15,608 nucleotides of DNA from an uncultured Porphyromonadaceae bacterium (GTDB lineage Bacteria > Bacteroidota > Bacteroidia > Bacteroidales > Muribaculaceae), in contig USGZ01000003.1 in assembly GCA_900554265.1 (NCBI GenBank), positions 1 to 15,608 on the forward strand, read 5' to 3'. Shown piece by piece: positions 2,455 through 15,474 of the stretch (position 1 is its first letter; every line of letters begins with the position of its first letter). The notes below the pieces were generated by a model. It worked only from the letters and a program-made list of their open reading frames with translations, searched no databases and had not been told where the DNA came from. The translations under genes were made by a program, and so were the position numbers.

Positions 2455-3666
2455 TCAGCGGCGCCCGGATGCAAGCGTCGTTTTCTCTATAACGTCCAAG
2501 CCGAGGTCTTGGTTGACCCCGCGCGTAAAATCCTCGAGGCGTCCGTCCGGAGCGACGTAGAGAAGCACCGGCGTAACGGAACCTACTCCGCAGTCGCGGG
2601 CCAGGGAACCGGCATTGAGGAGGGCTGTCTCTGACGGTCCGAGGGGCAGCACGAGCTCGTCGACGTCCTCATGGCGCTTGTCCAGGAAAGCCCAAACGAC
2701 TTCCACGTTCATCGGCATCATCCCCGCTGCGGAACGCACACTCCGGATTACCTCGGGTGTGCTGCCTACCGAGCTCTCCAGCACGACGTATATCACCGGA
2801 GAAGCGTTCTCCTGGCCTTTGAGGCGGGTGTAGCGTCCTCCGTCGAGGGTAGGCAGAGCTATGCGGGGCATCGGCTTGCCGACGAGTTCCTCGAGAGAGA
2901 AACTGCTCTGGCGGAAGCGCTGCATGACCTCGGATTCCTCCGCCAGTAAGGTCTCCATATCCATGGGACAAGCTTCGGAGGCCAGACGGGCGCGACGGAA
3001 CTCGACCGTCACGCTTTGCTCGCCGAGCTGGCCCGGATTATTCTCAAGGCTGATTTTCAGCGGCATGTATGTATCCTGGTCCAGCAGATATGTGAACTCG
3101 AGGGCATCGTAGCCGGAAACACGGCGCACGCCCTGGACGCGCAAGGCCTTGCGGCCGCCATGATTGATATTGTCGCGGATCTCATAGCGGTAGCTCATAT
3201 CGGAATCCATTGCCGCGAAGGTGCGTCCGAGCATCTGGGGCAGCAGGTCCGCGAACTGGGCGCGGTTCTGGACGCCGTCGGCAGTACGGCCTCCGGGCGT
3301 GAATGTCTGGGGCTCGCGCGAGAAGTGGTATTCCTGAAGGCGGTCGTTGTGGTATCGGAAATGGTCGCCTCCGAAGTATGCCGAAAAGCCCCGGGTCAAG
3401 CCCGAAGGGGTCGGAAGAGTCCAGCGGATAAAGTAGGTGCAGCCGGCGAGCGTGTCGGCGGCGGCGGCGGAGCTCTCGAGCGACACCGTATAGGCTATCG
3501 GGTCCGAAAAATTGGGCAGGAGGATTTCGTAGGTGCAGGTGTCCGCATAGCAGGGCGTCGACACAAGGCGTTCGGCTATCTGCCGGAGGGCAGGGACGGC
3601 AAAAGCGGGGAAACTGGCGGCGCATGCGGCCATGACTATGAGACTGCGGATAAAACTGGCTTGCAT
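2455..3666 (-). CDS. Secreted protein with a cysteine-less thioredoxin-like (TlpA/AhpC-type) C-terminal domain
   Basis: 403 residues. A signal peptide (MQASFIRSLIVMAACAASFPAFA) is probably cut after Ala23, so the protein is likely periplasmic. Residues about 30-240 form an unrecognised, strand-rich domain; a LolA-like half-barrel is possible but unproven. From about 260 the pattern is thioredoxin-like: GKPMPRIALPTLDG (as at the start of TlpA/AhpC domains), a hydrophobic strand VIYVVLE, then the position where WCGPC is expected, and later TPVLLYVAPDGRL with a candidate cis-proline Pro366. In place of CxxC the sequence reads V300-G-S-T303, so it cannot do dithiol exchange at that site. It may act as a binding or chaperone domain (inference). 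It lies upstream of tpx on the same strand with a 26-base gap. Confidence 0.75.
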   Translation of the reverse strand: MQASFIRSLIVMAACAASFPAFAVPALRQIAERLVSTPCYADTCTYEILLPNFSDPIAYTVSLESSAAAADTLAGCTYFIRWTLPTPSGLTRGFSAYFGGDHFRYHNDRLQEYHFSREPQTFTPGGRTADGVQNRAQFADLLPQMLGRTFAAMDSDMSYRYEIRDNINHGGRKALRVQGVRRVSGYDALEFTYLLDQDTYMPLKISLENNPGQLGEQSVTVEFRRARLASEACPMDMETLLAEESEVMQRFRQSSFSLEELVGKPMPRIALPTLDGGRYTRLKGQENASPVIYVVLESSVGSTPEVIRSVRSAAGMMPMNVEVVWAFLDKRHEDVDELVLPLGPSETALLNAGSLARDCGVGSVTPVLLYVAPDGRLEDFTRGVNQDLGLDVIEKTTLASGRR

Positions 3667-3795: not shown

Positions 3796-5211
3796 TCAGC
3801 CTTTCTGCAGGGTGAATGTAAATGCCAGACCTCCCGTCGGACGGTTGGCTACGGAAATCTTGCCTCCGTGGGCGAGGATGGTGCTCTGAACGATGGGCAG
3901 TCCCAGGCCCGTGCCGCCGGACTTGCGTGCGCGGCCGGAATCCACGCGGTAGAAACGCTCGAACAGGTGCGGGATATGTTCCTCGCTGACGCCTTTGCCG
4001 TCGTCGCGAAAAACGAATTCATAGAAACTTGCGTCCTGCCCGATGTAGAGCAGCTCGCATACGGTACCCTTGGAATAGGCCGCCGCATTGCGCGCAAGGT
4101 TCATGAGCATTCCGTTCAGCAGATTGTAGTTTCCCTTGACCTTGCAGTCCAGAGGCACGTCGTAGCGGAATTCCATATTCCCGAGCACGCCGGACTCTTC
4201 GATGTCGTTGGCAAGATTGAACGCTATGTCGTGGAAATCGAGTTCCTCGGTGCTTATCATTTCCGCACCGTCCTCGAGGCGTGTGATTGCCGAGACGTCG
4301 CTGATCAGGCTCACGAGCCTGTTGGCATGCTCGAGCGCCTTGCGGATGAAGTGATTGCGTGTGTCGGCGTCCATGTCCGGATTCTCGAGTATGGTATCGA
4401 GGTAGCCCTTGATCACACCGATCGGGGTCCTGAGCTCGTGGTTGATGTTGGAACTCATCTGGCGCTTGGCCTTGGCCTTCTCCTCGATTGCGTGGAGAGC
4501 GACGGCATGCTCCCTGCGCTGGCGTTCCATGGCCTGGGTGCGGGCGTTGAAGAGCGTCACAATCTGCCGGTTGATGTCGCCGAGTTCGTCGTGGGGGAAG
4601 TCCTCGGGCGGCAGGAAGCCGTCGGCCTTGACGGCCTGGTTTGCTACCGAACGGAGCAACTTGATGTTGCGGGTAAAGTGCCGCGAGGCCAGATATGCCA
4701 TCAGCGTGAGAAAAACAGCCAGTATGAACAGTGCCACGAAAAGCCTTATTCCCGGGTCGAGCGACTTCTCGAGCTGGTTGTCCATCGGCAGGAATGTATA
4801 GACGGCGAAACGATGGTCGGCGGAGCGCTTGATGCGGTAGAAATACTCCCTGTCGCGGGAGTTGCTGAAGAAGGCGTTGGTGTTGTGACCGTACGATTCC
4901 GTGGTCACACCGCCGGTCTGGGCCGCCTCCTCGGGGGTCAGGATAATGGGGTCGCCGTAGCTGAGTTCCAGCTGCCCATCCTTGTAGACGGAAATGCGGA
5001 TTGCATCGAAGGTAGGGTTGTCGCGGTAATAATTGTAGATGAAGGTAAGATAGGCGCGCAGGCCGCTCAGGGGCATCGGACCCTCGTAATAGTTTATTAC
5101 GCGCGAGTTAATCTGGTCCAGCTGCGCCTGGATACGGTCGATGTTGGACTGGCGGTTGGTGTAGAAAGCCCAGAGGCCCATGGTCAGCAGAGCCAGCCAC
5201 ATGCCTATCAC
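3796..5211 (-). CDS. Sensor histidine kinase of a two-component system
   Basis: 471 residues from the GTG at 5211. The layout is TM1 at about 1-17, an extracytoplasmic sensor region at about 18-155, and TM2 at about 157-176 (FVALFILAVFLTLMAYL). A HAMP-like linker follows, then the DHp domain with the phospho-acceptor box NHELRTP (His258). The ATP-binding domain has an N box (NLARNA, Asn375), G1 DDGKG (403-407), F box FERFYR and G2 GGTGLG (432-437), all intact. It autophosphorylates His258 and should pass phosphate to the regulator encoded 28 bases upstream. The start is uncertain: TM1 is short and lacks N-terminal positive charge. An in-frame TGA at 5232-5230 precedes KLFFPLV, and a single-base indel there would give a natural MKLFFPL start. 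The signal sensed is unknown. Confidence 0.93.
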   Translation of the reverse strand: MIGMWLALLTMGLWAFYTNRQSNIDRIQAQLDQINSRVINYYEGPMPLSGLRAYLTFIYNYYRDNPTFDAIRISVYKDGQLELSYGDPIILTPEEAAQTGGVTTESYGHNTNAFFSNSRDREYFYRIKRSADHRFAVYTFLPMDNQLEKSLDPGIRLFVALFILAVFLTLMAYLASRHFTRNIKLLRSVANQAVKADGFLPPEDFPHDELGDINRQIVTLFNARTQAMERQRREHAVALHAIEEKAKAKRQMSSNINHELRTPIGVIKGYLDTILENPDMDADTRNHFIRKALEHANRLVSLISDVSAITRLEDGAEMISTEELDFHDIAFNLANDIEESGVLGNMEFRYDVPLDCKVKGNYNLLNGMLMNLARNAAAYSKGTVCELLYIGQDASFYEFVFRDDGKGVSEEHIPHLFERFYRVDSGRARKSGGTGLGLPIVQSTILAHGGKISVANRPTGGLAFTFTLQKG

Positions 5212-5239
5212 CAGCGGGAAGAACAGCTTTCACTGATAA

Positions 5240-5959
5240 CTAATCCCTTTCCTTAAACCCATAGCCGAAGCCCTGGCGGGTTATGATATACTTGTCGTAC
5301 TTTCCGAGTTTCTTGCGCAGGCGGGTGATGTTGGTGTCGATGGTGCGTTCGGAAACAACGACATCGTCGCCCCATACGTTCTTCATGATTTCCTCGCGGG
5401 AGTGGATGCGGTTGCAGTGAGTAAGGAAGAACAGCAGGATATCGAACTCGGTGCGGGTAAGGGTTATGGGTTCGCCGTCGACGTAGCATTCCTTGTCGTT
5501 GCGGTCGATGCGGAGGCCCTTGAAGGTCACGTCGCTCTCGTAGAGGCTGTCTTTCTCGGCGGGAGCGCTTTCGGCACGCTTGTCGCCGCGGCCCGTACGA
5601 CGCAGGATAGCCCGGACGCGCGCTATGACCTCTCCGATAACGAAAGGCTTGGTCACGTAGTCGTCCGCACCGATGTTCAGGCCCTTGACCACGGCGTCCT
5701 CATCGTTGAGCGCGGAGCAGAAGAGAATGGGTTTTTCCTCGGTGTCGGTAACGTTGCGTATTCTTTTGGCGAAATCGAATCCGGATAGCTGGTCCATCAT
5801 GATGTCGACCATGAACATGTCATATTGCGGCAAATCCATGTCCAGGGCCTCCTCGGCGCTGTATGCGCAGTCTACCTCGTATCCCTCTTTCTCAAGATTG
5901 AATTTGAGAATTTCACATACGGCTTCTTCGTCGTCAATAACTAATATCCTTGTACTCAT
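5240..5959 (-). CDS. OmpR/PhoB-family response regulator
   Basis: 239 residues. The receiver domain (1-120) has the acidic pair Asp9/Asp10, phospho-acceptor Asp52 in MFMVDIMM, Ser82 and Lys104 in the YVTKPF loop. A charged linker (about 123-145) leads to a winged-helix DNA-binding domain with the typical TRTEFDILLFFL, ERTIDTNITRLRKKLG and the C-terminal GFGYGF hairpin. It is the first gene of the regulator-kinase pair and is transcribed away from the porin/MFS/hydrolase cluster. Regulation of that cluster is therefore plausible by position, though not shown. The ATG at 5959 gives a canonical N terminus MSTRILVIDDEE. Confidence 0.95.
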   Translation of the reverse strand: MSTRILVIDDEEAVCEILKFNLEKEGYEVDCAYSAEEALDMDLPQYDMFMVDIMMDQLSGFDFAKRIRNVTDTEEKPILFCSALNDEDAVVKGLNIGADDYVTKPFVIGEVIARVRAILRRTGRGDKRAESAPAEKDSLYESDVTFKGLRIDRNDKECYVDGEPITLTRTEFDILLFFLTHCNRIHSREEIMKNVWGDDVVVSERTIDTNITRLRKKLGKYDKYIITRQGFGYGFKERD

Positions 5960-6411: not shown

Positions 6412-7752
6412 ATGAAAACAGCCCCTATCTTAGCACTGCTGCTCGGCGCCTCCGCAATGTCTGCGACGGCCCAGGACCCGACGGCCGATCTTACCGGCGG
6501 CTCCGGCAGTAAAATCGAGTTCACACGGACCGACGACGCCACACGCGAAATCCTCAACCGCCACCGTCCGGTGGAAAACAAAGCCATTCCCGCACCGACG
6601 TTCGCGCTGAAAACCCAGAACAACAAATTCATCATGACCATCGGAGGAAGCATCAACCTTGTCTACGGCTACGACATCGGCAACAACCTCTACCAGCAGC
6701 CCGGCGCCGGCATCAGTTTCGTGACCTCCGCGATTCCCGTGCCGTCGGTAAAGGGACACCGGAGCGACTACTACATCAATCCGTTCAACAGCGCCGTCGA
6801 CATGCAGATTGTAGGCCTGGCCAACACCGACAATGAAATCAGCGCCTACGTAAAGTTCGGCACCGACGGCAACAGCATGAACCTGATGCTGCTACGCGCG
6901 TACATGACCTGGCGCAACTTCACTTTCGGCGAGAAACTGACACTGCTTCAGGACTGCTACGCCTGCCAGCCTCCGACAATCGACCCCGAAGGTCCCTCGG
7001 GCTGCGTTTCCAACGTCGCATATGAAATAAGCTACACCTCTCCGAGCTACAACGGCTTCCGCTATGCCGTCGGACTGGACATGCCGACTTACTATTCCTC
7101 CAACGGCATCTACCGCGGCAAGGACTTTCCGCGCTTCGACGGCACCCAGGTCGCAAACTACAGGAATGCCGAGCAGATTATCCCGGACGTCCCGGCCTGG
7201 ATCGAATACAGTTTCTCCCAATGGAACCGCATCCGTCTTTCCGGAATCCTGCGCACTTTCTCCTATGTCGACAACGTAGCCGACAAGACCCGCCACCTGG
7301 CAGGCTGGGGAGCGATGCTGTCCGGCAACCTCAGCCCCTGCGACTCCTTCATTTTCTACTATCAGTTCGCTTACGGCAAGGGCATAGGCAACTATATCCA
7401 GGACATCGCCGGCAAACCCATCTCCTTCATTCCCCGCGACGACAGGCCGGGCCGCATGAAAGCTTCCCCGATGATGGGACTCAACGCAGGCGTCACCTTC
7501 AACGCCACCAAGAAACTGCAGTTCAACGCCATGTTCTCCGAAGCCCGCATCTGGGACGTCGAGGACTACTGCAACGCCCTCCCCTCCGGCGAGAACTACA
7601 AATACGCCCTTTACGCCGCCGCCAACTGCTTCTACAACATCACGCCCTATCTGCAGTGCGGAGTCGAATACCTCTGGGGTCACCGCCAGACCTGGAACCA
7701 GGGCGGCGCGCACGACAACCGCATCCAGGCGCAGCTCCAGTTCACCTTCTGA
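6412..7752 (+). CDS. DcaP-like outer-membrane porin
   Basis: 446 residues. The signal peptide MKTAPILALLLGASAMSATA is probably cut after Ala20 (mature start QDPTADL). An N-terminal linker of about 40 residues precedes the barrel, which begins near FIMTIGGSINLVYGYD. The segment PPTIDPEGPSG (187-197), followed by IxY...G...A.G...P spacing, and the later YQFAYGKGIGNYIQD match what I know of the DcaP-like porin family. The protein ends LQFTF with a terminal Phe. DcaP of Acinetobacter is a trimeric channel for small, mostly anionic molecules; the substrate here is unknown. Unusually for a barrel it carries several cysteines (for example Cys182, Cys185, Cys198). It is the first gene of the + strand cluster, 93 bases before the first MFS gene, so it likely admits the compound handled by the cluster (inference). 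Confidence 0.78.
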   Translation: MKTAPILALLLGASAMSATAQDPTADLTGGSGSKIEFTRTDDATREILNRHRPVENKAIPAPTFALKTQNNKFIMTIGGSINLVYGYDIGNNLYQQPGAGISFVTSAIPVPSVKGHRSDYYINPFNSAVDMQIVGLANTDNEISAYVKFGTDGNSMNLMLLRAYMTWRNFTFGEKLTLLQDCYACQPPTIDPEGPSGCVSNVAYEISYTSPSYNGFRYAVGLDMPTYYSSNGIYRGKDFPRFDGTQVANYRNAEQIIPDVPAWIEYSFSQWNRIRLSGILRTFSYVDNVADKTRHLAGWGAMLSGNLSPCDSFIFYYQFAYGKGIGNYIQDIAGKPISFIPRDDRPGRMKASPMMGLNAGVTFNATKKLQFNAMFSEARIWDVEDYCNALPSGENYKYALYAAANCFYNITPYLQCGVEYLWGHRQTWNQGGAHDNRIQAQLQFTF

Positions 7753-7845
7753 GCCATCTTTCTTTCCGGCAAAACCAAACGTACCCTTAGTCTGTTTTTC
7801 ATTTAACAGGAGCCAAGAGTCCCACACCATTAAAATTCTTATAAT

Positions 7846-9252
7846 ATGTTCAAAATTCAATCGGGTTACGGAAAGCAGACACTACCCCTGTGGGCGGTCT
7901 TCAATCTGTACGTAATCTACATCTGTACCTCCATTCCGGGACTGGCCATCACGCCGATCATGAGCGACCTGACCAAAATATTCCCGGGAACCTCCCAGCT
8001 TGAGTCCCAGATGCTTGAAATCGGGCCTAACATCGCCGCCATACCGTTCGTGTTCCTCGGCGGCTGGATCGGCACCAAATTCAACAACAACAAGCTGACC
8101 ACCTGGACCTGTCTGCTGTACGGTATCTGCGGACTTCTCTTCTTCTTTGTGCCGAACATGATTACCCTGATAATCCTGAGTTTTCTCATCGGTATCGCCG
8201 CCGGCATCCTCAGTCCTCTGGCATCCGCATTCGTAGCGGACATGTTCGGAGGCGAGAAGCGAACCAAACAGTTCGGCTACACTTCCGCAACCCTCAACCT
8301 CGTCCTCATGGGCTGCGTCATCGCAACCGGCTATCTGGCAAAAATCAGCTGGCGCCTGCCCTTCATGATCTATCTTCTTCCCTTCGTCCCCCTTTTCTTC
8401 GCCTCCAAGTTCGGAAAGTATATTCCAACACCGGCTCCCGCCGCCGGCGCCAAGAAAGTGAAGTACAAGTTCTCCGAGCAGGTTAACGTATGGATGCTGA
8501 CCCGCTATTGCGTCTACTACCTCTTCATAACGCTGGTGATAGCCTCGATTTCGATGTACATCCCCTTCCGCTTCACCAACTCGTCGACTGCCGGTGACCT
8601 TACCTCGGTGCTCTTCTTCGGCATCATGGCCTCTGGCTACACCCTCAACTGGTGCGTCAAGATTCTTCGCGGACATGTGGCCGTAATGGTAATGATATTC
8701 ACCGTCGTCGGCTTCGCCATCATCTCCCTGTTCGACAATCCTCTGCTCGTAGGCCTCGGCATCCTGATCGCCACATACTTCTACGGAATCGCACAGCCTT
8801 ACTACTACGACCGCCTGTCCGTAGCCTCTACGCGAATCGCCCTGACCCTCACCCTGGCCATCTTCGCCTCGATGGATTCCATCGGCAATGTTGTCGCCCC
8901 GTTCATCATCGACGGTATCGCCAAGGTATTCCACACCTCCACCAGCACCGACCCCAACGTCGCATTCTGGATCTGCACATGGATGTCCGTAGCCGTACTC
9001 GCCGCAGTAGCAGTCTACGAAATCATAGTACGCTCGCGGAAGCATATCGCCGATGAGCGCGAACTGAAGCTCAAGGCCGCCGCCGACAGCCAGAACGCCC
9101 AGGCCGCCAAAGAGAACGAAATCAGAATCGCTGCCGCAAACAGCGACAACGGTCACGATGTAGCACCTCTTACGATGTCGCCCGACTCGGCTTACAAGGA
9201 CTCCGCGACGCTCACCGACGCCAAGACTGCCAAAGGCACACCCTCCGACTGA
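7846..9252 (+). CDS. MFS transporter 1 of the cluster, with long charged C-terminal tail
   Basis: 468 residues with about 12 hydrophobic segments, in line with the major facilitator superfamily (inner-membrane secondary carrier). The N terminus carries IPGLAITPIM (PGLA at 31-34), shared with the two MFS proteins downstream. The TM2-TM3 loop (GWIGTKFNNNK from Gly73) sits where motif A is expected, but Thr77 replaces its aspartate. TM10 holds YGIAQPYYYD (Gln317-Pro318), also shared. After TM12, residues 396-468 form a polar tail rich in Ala, Asp and Lys that probably stays in the cytoplasm; the other two MFS proteins have much shorter tails. The gene sits 53 bases before the first hydrolase, so it may import that enzyme's substrate (inference). 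Direction and substrate are not visible in the sequence. Confidence 0.92.
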   Translation: MFKIQSGYGKQTLPLWAVFNLYVIYICTSIPGLAITPIMSDLTKIFPGTSQLESQMLEIGPNIAAIPFVFLGGWIGTKFNNNKLTTWTCLLYGICGLLFFFVPNMITLIILSFLIGIAAGILSPLASAFVADMFGGEKRTKQFGYTSATLNLVLMGCVIATGYLAKISWRLPFMIYLLPFVPLFFASKFGKYIPTPAPAAGAKKVKYKFSEQVNVWMLTRYCVYYLFITLVIASISMYIPFRFTNSSTAGDLTSVLFFGIMASGYTLNWCVKILRGHVAVMVMIFTVVGFAIISLFDNPLLVGLGILIATYFYGIAQPYYYDRLSVASTRIALTLTLAIFASMDSIGNVVAPFIIDGIAKVFHTSTSTDPNVAFWICTWMSVAVLAAVAVYEIIVRSRKHIADERELKLKAAADSQNAQAAKENEIRIAAANSDNGHDVAPLTMSPDSAYKDSATLTDAKTAKGTPSD

Positions 9253-9305
9253 GCAAACGCCGGTCCGGACAATCAACAAGAACCCTCTCTTATACATCCA
9301 TTATT

Positions 9306-10973
9306 ATGTATCAACCGAAATTCAAAAACACGGAACCCCGGGAGTACGTACTCAACGAGTACGCCAAGGGTTACGCACAGTGTATCGACAACAACTGGAA
9401 CTTCGCCATATACGCGCAGGATCCGTCGGTCAGCATCTACCAGAACGAATACAACGCCGGATACGTACAGGGCAAAATCCAGGGCAACGAAATGATCAAG
9501 GCCACCCGAAACAACACCTGGCGCTGGTACGTACTCGACGAAGGTCCCGGCGCCAACTCGGTCACTCCTCCCGCCGGCGCCGTCGAGCAGGCTACCAAAG
9601 CCCTTATCGACAACTACAACTACATGACGGACTATGTGGAGAAAAAGCAGGACGACCGCCATATCCAGGGCCTCATCAGGCTGATGTTCCGCATGCTCGG
9701 CATCTACCACGGCGCCGCCGGCAAGGAAGCGCTGACCAACGTAAGCTTCGATAATCTGAAGATGTCCGGCATGAGCGCCGACGAACTCAAGATGAACTCC
9801 GGCGACGAGCCCCTGACCTTCATCGACATCTATTTCCTCAACGCCCAGATGGACCTCTGGGACGCAATCGGCAAGGAACTCGGCATCGATTTCAACGCCG
9901 TAGAGAAAAGCGACAAGGAGCATACCCTCCAGGAAAAGGAGGACACCGAGCGCATGGCCAAGGACGACAGGCTCAAACCGGGCCGCTGCTCCGGCTTCGT
10001 CACCAAGCTGGAAAACGGCGAGATTCTCTGGACTCACACTTCGTGGTGCTGCTTCTTCGCCCAGAGCTGCGCCGTGACCTACGTGATCGGCGACGACTTC
10101 CTCACCCAGAACTCCTTCTGCCCCGGCCAGTTCGGTTCCAATACCGATTTCGGCTTCAACGGCCACGGCATAGGCTTCAACGAAACCACCGAGACCTACT
10201 TCTACAACGAGTCCAAGACTCTCGGCCTCTGGCTGACCTGGCGCGCCGCAGCCGCCGAGGCATTCGCCACTTCCATCGACGACTTCTACGACTACGTAAC
10301 CCTCGACAACACCGGCACCTACCTCAACGCCTACATGCTTGTCGACGCCTACCGCGGAGAGTTCGGCATGATCGACATGAGCTACGCCCGCTTCGCCCTC
10401 TTCAAAGGCGACGGCACCAATCTGACGGTAAAGGACTCCACCGGCTACGAGCCCACATTCCTGGACTATGACCACCACATGATCAGTCCTACCTACGTGC
10501 TGGGCTGCAACATACCTGTCTACAAACGCATCTGGCGCGAACTGCAGACAATCGACGGCGCACCCAAACGCCGCTACCAGCTCTACCGCCATATCGGCGG
10601 CGTAAAGACGATGGACGACGCCAAACACCTGATTACCTACAACGACGACCTCGAGCCTATCTCCATCGCCGGACGCTGGGACAAGAACTACGGCACCTCC
10701 GAATTCCTGCGCTATCAGCCCCACGGCTCCATCGACGCCAAGGCTTTCGGCACCGAGGAAATCAAGAAAGTTCTGGCCTCGCTGAGCATGAAGCCCTCGA
10801 AGGACGGACAGAAGACTTCCTTCTGGATGCGTTTCGGAAGCGTCAAGCTCGACGGTACCCCCTTCGTATGGTCGCAGTCCATCTGGGCGAAATTCAAACA
10901 GCCCGAGGAAACCGACTTCATCCCGGATGCCATCGACGGTGCCTGGAACCGCGTGAAGATGTTCATGGAATAA
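9306..10973 (+). CDS. Phospholipase B-like (PLBD-type) Ntn hydrolase 1, cytoplasmic
   Basis: 555 residues; no signal peptide, and no upstream in-frame ATG in the 53-base gap. Landmarks of the phospholipase B-like family (PF04916) appear in order: AGYVQG at 51-56 (family AAGYvEG); GRC-SGF with candidate nucleophile Cys228 (family RCSAL); THTSW at 243-247 (family HNTW); C272-PG then DF and ETT at 293-295 (family YPG...DF...ETT); NTGTYLN ending Asn341 (family NSGTYNN); HGSIDAK at 473-479 (family HGGIDVK); FVWSQS with Trp522 (family FQWSTS). In this family the chain cuts itself before the Cys, whose new N terminus attacks an acyl ester or amide. The candidate Cys at 228 compares with about 249 in human PLBD2. 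A charged stretch (about 200-225) precedes the cut site. Known eukaryotic members are lysosomal or secreted, so a cytoplasmic copy between transporters is odd. The substrate is unknown. Confidence 0.82.
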   Translation: MYQPKFKNTEPREYVLNEYAKGYAQCIDNNWNFAIYAQDPSVSIYQNEYNAGYVQGKIQGNEMIKATRNNTWRWYVLDEGPGANSVTPPAGAVEQATKALIDNYNYMTDYVEKKQDDRHIQGLIRLMFRMLGIYHGAAGKEALTNVSFDNLKMSGMSADELKMNSGDEPLTFIDIYFLNAQMDLWDAIGKELGIDFNAVEKSDKEHTLQEKEDTERMAKDDRLKPGRCSGFVTKLENGEILWTHTSWCCFFAQSCAVTYVIGDDFLTQNSFCPGQFGSNTDFGFNGHGIGFNETTETYFYNESKTLGLWLTWRAAAAEAFATSIDDFYDYVTLDNTGTYLNAYMLVDAYRGEFGMIDMSYARFALFKGDGTNLTVKDSTGYEPTFLDYDHHMISPTYVLGCNIPVYKRIWRELQTIDGAPKRRYQLYRHIGGVKTMDDAKHLITYNDDLEPISIAGRWDKNYGTSEFLRYQPHGSIDAKAFGTEEIKKVLASLSMKPSKDGQKTSFWMRFGSVKLDGTPFVWSQSIWAKFKQPEETDFIPDAIDGAWNRVKMFME

Positions 10974-11033
10974 GTCTTCCAGGCCACCAGGACGCAAACA
11001 GGAATCAAGAAACTATAAACAAACAAATACCGG

Positions 11034-11047
11034 TGCGCAACAGCGCA
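11034..11047 (+). other. Small hairpin just upstream of the second hydrolase start
   Basis: TGCGC (11034-11038) and GCGCA (11043-11047) are perfect inverse complements around AACA, ending 10 bases before the ATG at 11058. In the mRNA it would sit at the edge of the ribosome-binding region and could affect translation of the second hydrolase. A 5-bp stem can be chance. Confidence 0.25.
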
Positions 11048-11057
11048 TGAACAAAAT

Positions 11058-12692
11058 ATGGCCACATACACCCCGAAATTCAAGAACACAGAGGCCACGC
11101 AATACGTACTCGACGAGTACACCTGCGGCTTCGCACAGTGTATCGACAATAACTGGAACTTCGCCATCTACGCCCAGAATCCCAATATCTCGATATATCA
11201 GAACGAGTACAACGCGGGCTACGTCCAGGGCAAGGTTCAAGGCAATGCCATGATAGTCGCCACCCGCAACAATTCGTGGAAAAACTTCCTGATCGGAGCC
11301 ACTCCTCAGGACAACCTCAACATAGACGTACACCCCGAATACCTGACGGCATCGGCCGAGAGCCTGATCCAGAACTACAACTATACCTACGACGTCCTCT
11401 CCTCCCGCCAGGACGACCCGATGTACCGGAACATCACCCGCCTGGTATTCCGCATGCTCGGCATCTACGACGGCGCCGCCGGCAACGAAGCCCGCAAGGA
11501 CGTCAAGTTGACCGACCTGGCTCTCCAGGCCTTCGACGCCTCCCAGCTCAAGCTCGGATACGACAGCGACCCGCTGACCTACATGGACGTAGTGTTCATC
11601 AACATGCAGTATGACCTTTTCGACGCCATCGGCGACAAAATCGGTCTGGTGATGGGCTACGGCACGGCCAGGAAAGCCAAGGATGCCGCGAACCAGTCCG
11701 ACCACTGCACGGCATTCACCAAGATGATGCCTGACCACAACGTATTCTGGACGCATAACTCCTGGTGCTGCTTCTGGGCCCAGAGCTGCGCCGTGACCTA
11801 CGTCATCGGCGAGGACTTCGTCACCCAGAACGCCAACTGCCCGGGCCAGTTCGGTTCCAACACTGACTTCGGCTTCAACGGCAACGGCATCGGCTTCAAC
11901 GAGACCACGCACGTAGACCTCTACGACAAGACTAAAATCGACGGCATCTTCCTGGCCTACCGCTCCGCGGCGGCCGAGCAGTTCTCCCATACCATCCGGG
12001 AGTTCTACGACTACTGCAAGCTCGACAATACGGGCACCTACCTCAACGGCTACCATCTTGTCGACGCCAATACCGGCGAAATCGGCCTGCTGGACATGTC
12101 GTACAACCGCTTCGTGCTCTTCGTGTGCGACGGCAAGGACGTAAAACTCACCGACTCCACCGGCTACGTACCCACGCATCTGGACTACGACCACCATCTG
12201 ATTACTCCTACGCATGTATTCGGCGTAAACCAGCCCGTCTCCTGGTGGGTAGGATATGAGCTGGAGAGCATGAACCTGCGCCCGATGCGCAGAAACCAGC
12301 TCTGGGCCCGTATCGACACCGTTCAGGACATCGAGACCGCAAAGGACCTCATCACCTACACCGAGGACCGCGAGCCGCTGTCCGTCTACGGCCGCTGGGA
12401 CCTGGGCTACGGCACCACCGAAATGGCGCGCATGCGTCCCGACGGTTCCGTCGACGCCAAAGCCGGCTCTGCGGAACTAATCCGCCAGACGCTGAAAAAC
12501 CTCAGCCGCATTCCGGACATCAACGGTACAAAAACCTCGTTCTGGATGAAGTTCGGCACCGCGCACGTCCAGCAGCTTCCCTTCATCTGGAGTCAGAGCC
12601 CCTGGGCCTCCATGAAGCAGGACGAGTCCGTGGACTTCGTGCCGGACGCCCTGGACGGACGCTGGAACCTTGTTAAAATGTTCATGAAATAA
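11058..12692 (+). CDS. Phospholipase B-like (PLBD-type) Ntn hydrolase 2, cytoplasmic
   Basis: 544 residues, a tandem paralogue of the preceding gene, alignable over its whole length with long identical blocks (AQCIDNNWNFAIYAQ, AQSCAVTYVIG, CPGQFGSNTDFGFNG). There is no signal peptide. Family landmarks: AGYVQG at 53-58; candidate nucleophile Cys217 in DHCTAF; HNSW at 233-236 (closer than its neighbour to the family HNTW); Cys261-PG and ETT at 282-284; NTGTYLN ending Asn330; DGSVDAK at 462-468; FIWSQS with Trp511. The family His of HGGIDVK is Asp462 here, and the linker before the cut site is shorter and less charged than in copy 1. Like copy 1 it should mature by self-cleavage before Cys217 and hydrolyse an acyl ester or amide; different substrate preference is likely (inference). 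The ATG at 11058 aligns its N terminus (YTPKFKNTE) with that of copy 1. Confidence 0.82.
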   Translation: MATYTPKFKNTEATQYVLDEYTCGFAQCIDNNWNFAIYAQNPNISIYQNEYNAGYVQGKVQGNAMIVATRNNSWKNFLIGATPQDNLNIDVHPEYLTASAESLIQNYNYTYDVLSSRQDDPMYRNITRLVFRMLGIYDGAAGNEARKDVKLTDLALQAFDASQLKLGYDSDPLTYMDVVFINMQYDLFDAIGDKIGLVMGYGTARKAKDAANQSDHCTAFTKMMPDHNVFWTHNSWCCFWAQSCAVTYVIGEDFVTQNANCPGQFGSNTDFGFNGNGIGFNETTHVDLYDKTKIDGIFLAYRSAAAEQFSHTIREFYDYCKLDNTGTYLNGYHLVDANTGEIGLLDMSYNRFVLFVCDGKDVKLTDSTGYVPTHLDYDHHLITPTHVFGVNQPVSWWVGYELESMNLRPMRRNQLWARIDTVQDIETAKDLITYTEDREPLSVYGRWDLGYGTTEMARMRPDGSVDAKAGSAELIRQTLKNLSRIPDINGTKTSFWMKFGTAHVQQLPFIWSQSPWASMKQDESVDFVPDALDGRWNLVKMFMK

Positions 12693-12714
12693 GTCAACAA
12701 GCTACTTAAACCAC

Positions 12715-12766
12715 AATCAGGCACAAAGCCTCGGCGCGACTTCCAGGCCGGGCCTTGTGCCTGATT
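12715..12766 (+). terminator. Long hairpin between hydrolase 2 and MFS 2
   Basis: AATCAGGCACAAAGCC (12715-12730) pairs with GGCCTTGTGCCTGATT (12751-12766) with one A-C mismatch. The stem continues inward with CGGC (12732-12735) against GCCG (12747-12750), leaving one bulged T and an 11-base loop. That makes about 20 base pairs, by far the strongest hairpin I found. It starts 23 bases after the hydrolase stop and ends 17 bases before the MFS 2 ATG. No T-run follows, so it may act as a partial terminator, an RNA-stability element or an RNase site rather than a classical terminator. Confidence 0.55.
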
Positions 12767-12783
12767 CCTGAATATACCAAGAC

Positions 12784-14052
12784 ATGAAACCCATTCAGAC
12801 AGGCAAACTGCCGTTGGACCCCACGGCTTATGTCGCCATACTATCGCTTTCGCTCATAGTCAATCTGCCGGGGCTTGCGGTGAGCCCGATGCTGGACACT
12901 CTGGCGCGTATCTTCCCCCAGTCGAGCGCCCTTGAGAAACAGCTTCTGACCATGCTGCCCAATCTTCTGATTATTCCTTTCGTCCTTATGTCCGGCAAAC
13001 TGTCGACAACGAACCACAAGAAAGCCCTGATAGTATCCGCGCTGCTGATTTTCGTCGGCTCGACCGTGGGCTACATGCTGGCCACGTCGATGCTTGCCCT
13101 GATAATTTTCAGCTGCACCCTCGGCATAGGCGCGGGCATTCTGGTCCCGTTCTCGACAGGTCTTCTTTCGGACACTTTCGCCGGAAAGCCTCTTATGAAG
13201 CAGATGGGTCTGCAGAGCGCAATCTCGAACCTGACGCTTGTGCTGGCCACTTTCGCAGTCGGCTGGCTTGCCCGTCTGAACTGGCACGCACCCTTCATGG
13301 TCTACGCCGTTTCCCTGATTCCGCTGGCACTTGTCAACTTCATCGGCCGCGTGCCCATGAACGAACTTGACCCCACCAAAGCCGACATGCACAATTACAT
13401 CGCCACCGCCACGGACGCGCCTTCGACCGACTGCAACGCCCAGGGCGTCGACGTCAAGAGAATGATCGGACTTTTCGTCGCATATTTTCTGCTTACCTTC
13501 GGAACCATATCCATATCGGAATACCTGCCCTTCCTGGCCCAGGAGCGCCAGATCAACGCATCCGTCACCGGCTCGCTGACTTCGGTATTCTTCCTGATGG
13601 TCTTCTTCTGCGGCATGTCGCTGACCCCGATTATCCGCATGCTGCGCAAGAACACAGTCCTGATTTGCACCCTGCTGTGCCTTGTCGGGATGCTGATAGT
13701 GTCTGTGGCGCAGAACGTACAGCTTGTCGGAGCGGGCATCATTATCGCCGGCATCGGCTACGGCGCGCTCCAGCCGCTGTTCTACAATAAGGCGACCCAG
13801 TGCGTGGACCGGCCGTCGCTGAGCACCAAGGCCCTGTCGATAATCCTCACCGCCAACTATTCGGCAATCGTTATCGAGCCTCTTGTCACGCAGGGCGTCT
13901 GCCGGCTTCTCCATAAATCCGTGGAAAGCGCTTTCCCCTTCGTGATCAGCGTCGCCGTGTGCGGCATCTTCCTGATTTATGCCATCCTGACCCGCAAGAC
14001 ATTCATCGGCACCATCTCGAATATCTACTATCAGAAAGAGGTGACCAAGTGA
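12784..14052 (+). CDS. MFS transporter 2 of the cluster
   Basis: 422 residues with about 12 hydrophobic segments. It shares with MFS 1 and 3 the N-terminal LPGLAVSPML (from Leu28), the LEKQLLTMLPNL block before TM2, and GYGALQPLFYNK in TM10 (Gln330-Pro331). The motif A position reads GKLSTTNHKK with Thr75 in place of the usual Asp. A polar loop of about 35 residues lies between TM6 and TM7. The C-terminal tail is short (TRKTFIGTISNIYYQKEVTK). The gene lies downstream of the strong hairpin, so its expression may differ from that of the first four genes. As an inner-membrane carrier it may import a second substrate or export a cleavage product (inference). Confidence 0.92.
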   Translation: MKPIQTGKLPLDPTAYVAILSLSLIVNLPGLAVSPMLDTLARIFPQSSALEKQLLTMLPNLLIIPFVLMSGKLSTTNHKKALIVSALLIFVGSTVGYMLATSMLALIIFSCTLGIGAGILVPFSTGLLSDTFAGKPLMKQMGLQSAISNLTLVLATFAVGWLARLNWHAPFMVYAVSLIPLALVNFIGRVPMNELDPTKADMHNYIATATDAPSTDCNAQGVDVKRMIGLFVAYFLLTFGTISISEYLPFLAQERQINASVTGSLTSVFFLMVFFCGMSLTPIIRMLRKNTVLICTLLCLVGMLIVSVAQNVQLVGAGIIIAGIGYGALQPLFYNKATQCVDRPSLSTKALSIILTANYSAIVIEPLVTQGVCRLLHKSVESAFPFVISVAVCGIFLIYAILTRKTFIGTISNIYYQKEVTK

Positions 14053-14080
14053 GCGCCGGCTCAGGACAACATATCAAGTG

Positions 14081-14098
14081 CGGAAACCCGGTTTTCCG
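14081..14098 (+). other. Short hairpin between MFS 2 and MFS 3
   Basis: CGGAAA (14081-14086) and TTTCCG (14093-14098) are perfect inverse complements around a 6-base loop, inside the 75-base gap. No U-run follows. It could be a weak RNA element or chance. Confidence 0.2.
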
Positions 14099-14127
14099 GA
14101 TATAACCATACAACATTCAACCAGATT

Positions 14128-15474
14128 ATGAAATATATTGATTGCGGCTGCGGGAAAATACCCTGGATATCCATCCTGGCCATACTCTCGATTTCACTGA
14201 CGGTGAATCTCCCGGGACTCGCCATCTCCCCCATCATGGGGAAGTTGGACGAAGTGTTCACCGATGTCACAGAACTGGAAATCCAGTTGCTGACCGTTCT
14301 TCCCAATCTCGTCACCATTCCGTTCATTCTCTTCTCCGGCAAGCTCTGTACACCTAAAAACCAGATGTTCATACTCGGCGCCGGCCTGGTGATCTACACC
14401 CTGACGGGAGTGCTGTACTTTTTCGCCGACAGGATGACGGAACTTATCGTGCTGAGCTGCATGCTCGGCGTGGGCTGCGGACTTATAATCCCGCTTGCGG
14501 CGTCGATGATATCGGAGTATACCGTCGGCAAGGCCCGCACTAAGATTCTCGGAATGAAGTCCGGCGTAAGCAATTTCATGGTGATTTTCGCCACGCTGTT
14601 CGTCGGCTGGATAGCCGCCTATAACTGGCACGCCGCCTTCACCGTCTACATGATACCGCTCATTCCGCTGTGCCTGATGCCTTTCATGAGCCGGCGGTAC
14701 ATCGACGGCCACCGCATCGACGCACCGGGGGAATTCGTGGCTCCTACCCGCGAGCCCGCCAGGCCATCCGACAAGGATATAGCCCAGGCCAGGAGCACCG
14801 GAAAACCCGCCGGTCCCAATTTCCACTTCCAGGGCAAGCTCTCGCTGATTCTTCTTGCCGGGCTCATGTCCCTTTACTTCATGGCCACATACGGCACCGA
14901 AGTGGTAAGCTACTACCTGCCTTTCACGATGAAGGACTATCATCTTACGACAGGCGACGTAGGCGTAGCCACGGCAATGTACTTCGCCTCGGCGACCCTT
15001 TCGGGCTTCATTCTTCCGAAGGCGATCAAGCTCTGCCGGGAATGGACAATGGAAATCGCTCTGGTGCTGGTAATCTTCGGGCTCTTCTTCGTCGGAGTAT
15101 TCCATGCCTACTGGACCTATATCGTCGGCATCTTCATCATGGGCCTCGGCTACGGCGTTATCCAGCCGCTGATCTACGACAAGACTTCCTACGTAGCCCC
15201 CAACGCCGCCAAGCAGAACGCCTACTTCTCCTATCTTCTGACCTGCAACTATATCGGCATTTCGCTGGTACCGTTCATAATCGGCGCCGCACGCCGGCTG
15301 TTCAACTCGCACAGCGACAATTTCTCCTTTATCTTCAACGGCTTCGTGCTGCTGGTCGTGCTGCTGATAGCCATCTGGAAGCGCAGGAGCTTCGTAATCG
15401 CCGCGGACGCGGATAGCTACGAGAACCAGCCGTCGACCCTCGGACGGGTTTCCTCGCAGACTCCGGAAAAGTAA
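14128..15474 (+). CDS. MFS transporter 3 of the cluster
   Basis: 448 residues with about 12 hydrophobic segments, closest in pattern to MFS 2. It has NLPGLAISPIMGKL, LEIQLLTVLPNL, and GYGVIQPLIYDK in TM10 (Gln346-Pro347). The motif A position reads GKLCTPKNQM with Thr75, again without the aspartate. The TM6-TM7 loop is longer (about 50 residues) and Pro/Asp-rich. A 35-residue polar tail follows TM12. It is probably cotranscribed with MFS 2 (75-base gap). The stop codon TAA at 15472-15474 touches the facing stop codon of the ApbE fragment. Confidence 0.92.
   Translation: MKYIDCGCGKIPWISILAILSISLTVNLPGLAISPIMGKLDEVFTDVTELEIQLLTVLPNLVTIPFILFSGKLCTPKNQMFILGAGLVIYTLTGVLYFFADRMTELIVLSCMLGVGCGLIIPLAASMISEYTVGKARTKILGMKSGVSNFMVIFATLFVGWIAAYNWHAAFTVYMIPLIPLCLMPFMSRRYIDGHRIDAPGEFVAPTREPARPSDKDIAQARSTGKPAGPNFHFQGKLSLILLAGLMSLYFMATYGTEVVSYYLPFTMKDYHLTTGDVGVATAMYFASATLSGFILPKAIKLCREWTMEIALVLVIFGLFFVGVFHAYWTYIVGIFIMGLGYGVIQPLIYDKTSYVAPNAAKQNAYFSYLLTCNYIGISLVPFIIGAARRLFNSHSDNFSFIFNGFVLLVVLLIAIWKRRSFVIAADADSYENQPSTLGRVSSQTPEK

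Follow-up and report, generated by a model that had tools for sequence, protein, structure and literature searches.

What would two phospholipase B-like (PLB) proteins without export signals be doing among genes for membrane transport? The question is raised by a 15,608-nucleotide stretch of contig USGZ01000003.1 (assembly GCA_900554265.1), from an uncultured member of the Muribaculaceae; we refer to this whole stretch as the window. Between positions 6412 and 15474, six open reading frames (ORFs) on one strand encode, in order, a porin, a major facilitator superfamily (MFS) carrier, two PLB-like proteins and two further MFS carriers. We propose, with confidence evenly divided for and against, that they form a Muribaculaceae cassette for the uptake and amidohydrolysis of small polar amides, serving nitrogen or carbon salvage or acid tolerance of the amino-acid type. 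The features are:

6412..7752, + strand: DcaP-like outer-membrane porin, 446 aa; hydrophobic start and DcaP relationship
7846..9252, + strand: MFS_A, inner-membrane carrier and core member, from Pfam, tree and relative loci
9306..10973, + strand: PLB1, unexported hydrolase of the N-terminal nucleophile (Ntn) type, PF04916 / C95, 555 aa; predicted nucleophile C228
9987..9989, + strand: TGC codon of PLB1 C228 (equivalent of PLBD2 C249), codon checked
11058..12692, + strand: PLB2, PLB1 paralogue, 544 aa; catalytic residues as in PLB1
11706..11708, + strand: codon of PLB2 C217, aligned with PLB1 C228
12784..14052, + strand: MFS_B, carrier of a glutaminase- and phosphatidylserine (PS)-decarboxylase-linked MFS clade, from Pfam and tree
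14128..15474, + strand: MFS_C, carrier, from Pfam, tree and relative loci

The stop-to-start gaps are, in order, 93, 53, 84, 91 and 75 bases, as an earlier reading of the window (the original prediction) had it when it described six same-strand genes with gaps of 53–93 bases. Its protein assignments also hold. Pfam finds MFS_1 in all three carriers (E 1.5e-25, 8.9e-32 and 3.9e-41) and PF04916 in PLB1 and PLB2 (E 9.7e-19 and 2e-16; 67.8 and 60.2 bits against a curated cut-off of 27). The porin has no Pfam match; against the DcaP structure 6eus it scores E 7e-4 as a single sequence and 1.2e-14 as a 24-sequence profile, the best stretch being the C-terminal part only (profile 287–447). As originally predicted, such a porin would fit a Gram-negative envelope. 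PLB1 and PLB2 are 53% identical, MFS_B and MFS_C 34%, and MFS_A and MFS_C 25%.

A conserved four-gene core

Relatives of PLB1 lie at 20 loci (L001-L020) in Muribaculaceae, Paramuribaculum, Porphyromonadaceae, Bacteroides or Bacteroidales metagenome-assembled genomes, many of them fragmented, and the tallies were read from their neighbourhood tables. The conserved unit is porin-MFS_A-PLB1-PLB2, whose order and strand are kept while the surroundings vary. PLB2 follows PLB1 in all 18 loci with a contig extending past PLB1, and MFS_A is immediately preceded by the porin gene in 17 of the 18 where the contig reaches that far (the exception is L008). Each of the 17 genomes searched has two PF04916 matches, both within one contig-end fragment in G017. 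MFS_A belongs to a 20-row clade of the MFS tree, with support of 100/100, in which 19 rows stand beside PLB.

An MFS_C-type gene is found upstream of the core, and divergent from it, in 12 of 14 informative loci (it is missing in L009 and L017). It is thus on the opposite strand in the relatives that have it, and on the same strand as the core in the window; the MFS_C-type genes of L002, L008 and L018 are 46–48% identical to MFS_C and are placed elsewhere in the tree. MFS_B occurs in none of the 20 relative loci. The neighbourhood set out in the original prediction is therefore conserved as a core of four genes, and it is the claim for all six as a unit that has to be narrowed. No further gene is constant beside the cassette in the flanks of L001-L020, and no regulator gene either. 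Of the 198 genomes examined in the family, just 3 have PF04916, and one of these is the genome on which the sample was centred. Since the core order is kept, the flanks differ and so few family genomes have PF04916, the cassette is a compact, patchily distributed module. A plasmid collection gave no PLB1 match, and a promoter and terminator scan of the window returned counts near those of shuffled sequence.

A second group of unexported PLB proteins comes from two related genomes, G682 and G783, each with four PF04916 matches. Of their six PLB loci, L184, L212, L213 and L214 have an MFS_A-type carrier gene alongside, and L184 and L214 a porin gene as well; L210 and L211 have PLB without MFS_A-type or porin neighbours. 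Could the cluster nonetheless be a chance assembly of unrelated same-strand genes? Flanking genes do vary among genomes, and both MFS_B and the direction of MFS_C are peculiar to the window. We consider chance very improbable, since the neighbourhood is conserved: the four core genes hold order and strand throughout the relatives, and the link between PLB and MFS_A-type genes recurs in the second group.

An unexported branch of the PF04916 family

Residues C228, H244, W247, T295, N402 and R422 of PLB1 correspond to the catalytic Cys, His, Trp, Thr, Asn and Arg of PLBD2 and are invariant in 28/28 sequences, with N402 placed by profile-profile alignment and its position known from alignment, not spatially. 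A 41-row alignment had chosen another column, which made it seem that the unexported proteins had lost the oxyanion-hole Asn; we reject that reading on the profile-profile placement at N402. PLB1 is predicted to share the mouse PLBD2-type Ntn fold. Residues 213–225, just before C228, form a low-confidence, linker-like segment of the predicted structure, and PLB1 may cleave itself before C228. A sequence search of the PDB with PLB1 alone as query found no match. No glutaminase is among the 50 structures listed for PLB1, which is not evidence either way.

The starts of the two proteins do not resemble signal peptides. Maximum mean hydropathy of the start, which we used as a proxy and which is not a signal-peptide program, is 0.48 for PLB1 and 0.40 for PLB2, compared with 2.35 for the window porin; unexported hydrolases between transporters had been predicted. 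Full-length unexported relatives reach at most 1.02, and a truncated piece in L039 has 1.70. In a phylum sample, PF04916 was present in 18 of 395 genomes, one being the genome at the centre of the sample, and the remaining 17 yielded 22 loci. A hydrophobic start is present on the PF04916 ORF in all 22 (hydropathy 2.0–3.4 for 19, and 2.3–3.5 for L026, L037 and L042), and no MFS or porin homologue lies within 1.5 kb of any. Co-occurrence of PF04916 with MFS and DcaP-like genes, raised in the original prediction for Bacteroidota, is hence seen in L001-L020 and, for MFS, in four of the six G682/G783 loci (two of them with a porin), and not at the 22 exported-type loci. In six of the latter (L029, L031, L033, L034, L036 and L038) the ORFs run to the locus end at 959–986 aa and have an extra N-terminal region. 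By profile, residues and the predicted fold of PLB1, we assign PLB1 and PLB2 to PF04916 as an unexported, transporter-linked branch.

Amino-acid enzymes beside the same transporter families

What accompanies these transporter families where PLB is absent? We searched 149 genomes of the family with the porin and MFS_C, and 295 genomes of the order with MFS_C, and then read the neighbourhoods. Neighbours of glutaminase, asparaginase, glutamate decarboxylase (GAD) or GadC-like type were present in 32 of 55 MFS rows and in none of 30 control loci, which were the best-scoring PF07690 matches in 59 genomes, both with 1.5 kb flanks. The split is 19/35 at family level and 13/20 at order level, where PLB was counted and where 9 of the 20 rows come from G682 and G783. 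The 55 rows exclude the duplicates L151 and L152, the MFS genes of L121 and L196 (not picked by the ORF script) and partial, weak or unretrieved MFS_C matches such as G486:C216. Loci L115-L122 had been chosen for adjacent porin and MFS matches, and all eight of their MFS genes are also matches of the family MFS_C search.

In Muribaculaceae without PLB, the MFS family occurs in cassettes of a PS-decarboxylase-like gene (PF02666), a GadC-like antiporter and an MFS carrier, many with a porin. A recurrent cassette of glutaminase A, MFS and type I asparaginase (L140-L143, L145, L146, L148, L268-L271 and L273-L276) includes a divergent porin gene in some cases, and L147 and L149 hold clusters of GAD, glutaminase, GadC-like antiporter and MFS. 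In other Bacteroidales the MFS gene is often divergent from gadB-glsA (L187-L189, L193, L194 and L199-L201), and from GAD alone in L195. In Muribaculaceae, at least 14 of 42 glutaminases of a second type have a porin match no more than 0.6 kb away, the 42 having been counted by eye with fragments merged. Together these neighbourhoods suggest that gut Bacteroidales reuse a transport unit of porin plus MFS, fitted with differing amino-acid enzymes.

Several details of these loci can be added. The PF02666 genes of L115-L122 and L137-L139 stand in a row with the GadC-like antiporter, the MFS gene and often a DcaP-like porin, and are doubled in L138 and L139; they are possibly amino-acid rather than phospholipid decarboxylases (Pfam coverage here is limited to part of the genes of L117, L120-L122 and L138). 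At the gadB-glsA loci, the next gene belongs to one cluster in 6/8 (an EamA transporter by Pfam in L193), and a gene of an ion-channel cluster is present in 6/8 (Ion_trans_2 in L193). The second-type glutaminase of L260-L267, mostly without a hydrophobic start, is directly beside a DcaP-like porin, as confirmed at 8/8 loci examined.

MFS_B itself falls inside the MFS clade of the glutaminase and PS-decarboxylase cassettes with support of 100/99, and this clade keeps 99 by the SH-aLRT test when L149, L122 and L147 are left out (74 rows); the branch of MFS_B is long, and its nearest sister is therefore unsure. Not every relative of the transporters has such company. Porin relatives in L105-L114, 46–59% identical to the window porin, have no constant enzyme neighbour, save a three-locus group with housekeeping genes, and MFS_C relatives in L123-L136 and L144 have no constant partner, save acylation-type genes in L123, L124 and L126.

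PLB and the amino-acid enzymes also meet directly. In L016 the genes for MFS_A, PLB1, PLB2, glutaminase A and type I asparaginase follow one another on one strand, the glutaminase gene being separated from its two neighbours by 151 and 29 bases, and L184 has the order porin-MFS-GAD-PLB-MFS_A, which puts PLB next to GAD. By hand tally, glutaminase-asparaginase cassettes are present in 10 of 17 PLB genomes and in 8 of 147 non-PLB family genomes (the 149 minus G002 and G012; nominal Fisher p 2e-7, uncorrected for relatedness), where the 8 may be an undercount since PLB genomes were reached via glutaminase loci and the others mainly via MFS matches. In nine of the ten the cassette is glutaminase-MFS-asparaginase, and in the tenth (G013) a glutaminase-asparaginase pair is joined to PLB; among the eight, G486 and G534 show, on short contigs, only an MFS gene beside glutaminase.

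Proposed function and its alternatives

How might the cassette work? The DcaP-like porin would admit a small polar amide to the periplasm, and the MFS carriers would take it on through the inner membrane and would probably also handle the products, by exchange or removal. The two cytoplasmic PLBD-type Cys-Ntn hydrolases would cleave themselves before the nucleophile Cys (C228 in PLB1) and then cut a non-peptide amide bond, to yield an acid and an amine or ammonia. The cassette may be one variant of a broader arrangement among Bacteroidales, with these porin and MFS families working for any of several exchangeable amino-acid enzymes: glutaminase, asparaginase, GAD, or the PS-decarboxylase-like enzyme with its GadC-like antiporter. 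PLB1 and PLB2 would play the part that glutaminase and asparaginase have in the sister cassettes. Ntn enzymes mostly cleave non-peptide amides (PMC2739207 and PMC8053727, each in part). The original prediction listed conjugated bile acids and lysolipid-like esters among possible substrates; we favour small amino-acid-type amides over both, because the MFS and porin families neighbour glutaminase, asparaginase, GAD and GadC-like genes.

Several observations weigh against this proposal. Of the scored MFS rows, 23/55 lack an amino-acid enzyme neighbour of the types sought, and none of the window proteins scanned is a glutaminase, asparaginase or decarboxylase. Glutaminase of any kind is only weakly enriched in PLB genomes (12/17 against 66/147, nominal p 0.07), and five of the 17 have no glutaminase match. 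GAD is found in none of the 17 PLB Muribaculaceae genomes, compared with 24 of 149 over the cut-off in the family sample. The genomes are related, so that counts are not independent and p-values are nominal. Transport direction cannot be read from the sequence of an MFS carrier, and the solved structures that the carriers match, albeit weakly, are efflux proteins (NorA for MFS_C, NorA and EfpA for MFS_A). Import is our supposition, and the original prediction of one protein for each inward step overstated the direction. Finally, fatty amides are the substrates of the related Ntn enzymes NAAA and ceramidase, and lipid amides have been proposed for PLBD2 (PMC9140057, in part).

The cassette might instead take up and deconjugate bile acids or N-acyl lipids in the manner of cbsT1-cbsT2-cbsH of Lactobacillus johnsonii, with a PLB-type enzyme in place of the bile salt hydrolase. 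The layout is similar, but Pfam at E 0.001 finds only PF04916 and no choloylglycine hydrolase family in PLB1 and PLB2, in line with the different Ntn family predicted originally; we regard this explanation as unlikely. The efflux proteins among the MFS matches bring up the reverse direction, in which the cytoplasmic hydrolases would act as acyltransferases that make N-acyl amino acids or amines, released through MFS pumps and porin. This is quite unlikely in our view: the cassette has no further constant gene, hence none for an acyl donor enzyme or acyl carrier, and the parallel cassettes hold degradative hydrolases and decarboxylases.

A narrower form of the uptake-and-amidohydrolysis proposal is acid tolerance proper, with amide hydrolysis giving proton-accepting ammonia or amine as does the glutaminase step of the Gln/Glu system. 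It is suggested by the other neighbours of these MFS and porin families, namely gadB-glsA, GadC-like antiporter and glutaminase genes, together with the protective role of the GAD-glutaminase system in Bacteroides under acid (PMC8082179, in part). We hold it only tentatively, given that GAD is absent from the PLB Muribaculaceae genomes, that glutaminase and asparaginase also serve plain nitrogen and carbon use, and that the flanks of the cassette hold no constant regulator gene. The order of L184 had suggested that PLB feeds glutamate to GAD in the same cell, and GAD is present in G682 and G783; for Muribaculaceae the idea is rejected by the 0/17. Against 24/147 that absence gives a nominal Fisher p of 0.14, which does not show mutual exclusion of PLB and GAD.

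Upstream genes in the window

Just upstream of the cassette, on the opposite strand (3796–5959), are genes for a PhoB-type response regulator (308 bits against a cut-off of 270) and a histidine kinase. They are possible regulators of the cassette: neither a response regulator nor a histidine kinase match occurs in L001-L020, and similar pairs are located near one cassette of G682 (L213) and near one glutaminase cassette (L142). Further upstream are a DUF5723 protein (548–1912; E 1.1e-83) and a 403-aa protein (2455–3666) with a sub-threshold match to MucB/RseB (E 0.0072).

Significance

The substrates of PLBD1 and PLBD2 have been called elusive (PMC9140057, in part), and the phospholipase label of PLBD proteins is disputed (PMC8053727, in part). 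The bacterial cassette makes the C95 substrate question directly testable, and the link of PLB to glutaminase, asparaginase and decarboxylase neighbourhoods supplies a cheap, concrete substrate panel and a knock-out phenotype. It is possible, though we would not yet favour it, that the unexported PLB-like enzymes hydrolyse small amino-acid amides and replace glutaminase and asparaginase in a modular system of import and amidolysis in Bacteroidales; the orphan C95 family, to which human PLBD1 and PLBD2 belong, would then have its first substrate class. Among the matches listed in our literature searches, judged by title and the start of the abstract, no paper describes such a cassette, and none was found that pairs Muribaculaceae with phospholipase B; the main text of the Bacteroides GAD paper (PMC8082179) has 0 matches for transporter, porin or MFS. 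Within those matches, we found no earlier description of the link between PLB and amino-acid enzyme cassettes or of the shared porin/MFS unit.

Comparison with known systems

PLB1 and PLB2 are ~20% identical to mammalian PLBD1 and PLBD2 (MEROPS C95, PF04916) and differ from them in having no signal-like start and in being tandem paralogues within a transporter cassette. A secreted or lysosomal location is typical of PF04916/PLBD proteins without defining them by sequence, and PLB1, PLB2 and their full-length unexported relatives, which have no hydrophobic start, do not appear to share it. The exported PF04916 proteins of other Bacteroidota have the invariant Cys and His, with G-x-N and Arg motifs that align with PLB1. 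They differ in their hydrophobic start, in low identity to PLB1 (18–23%, 13 aligned) and in lacking the transporter neighbours. The window porin is like the Acinetobacter DcaP porins in sequence (6eus). A dicarboxylic-acid pore is a feature of those proteins, among which DcaP3 is required if di- and tricarboxylic acids are to support growth (PMC12338516, in part), and is putative for the window porin.

The cbsT1-cbsT2-cbsH genes of L. johnsonii and Lactobacillus acidophilus, to which the original prediction likened the cluster, likewise combine a pair of related MFS genes with an adjacent gene for a hydrolase (PMC4207937, in part). They belong to Gram-positive bacteria, have no porin and include a single hydrolase of the bile-salt-hydrolase type. 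The likeness of layout stands; hydrolase family and genomic company differ, and by its assigned family the cluster is not a bile-salt-hydrolase operon.

Closest in company are the Bacteroidales glutaminase-MFS-asparaginase and GAD-glutaminase neighbourhoods, which have related MFS carriers, in some cases a related porin, and enzymes that cleave amides or amino acids. Their enzyme families are other ones, and glutaminase, asparaginase and GAD are all missing from the gene set of the window. The cluster itself is hence not a glutaminase/GAD system, but it shares the transport families of such systems, and elsewhere their genes are directly linked to it, as L016 and L184 illustrate.

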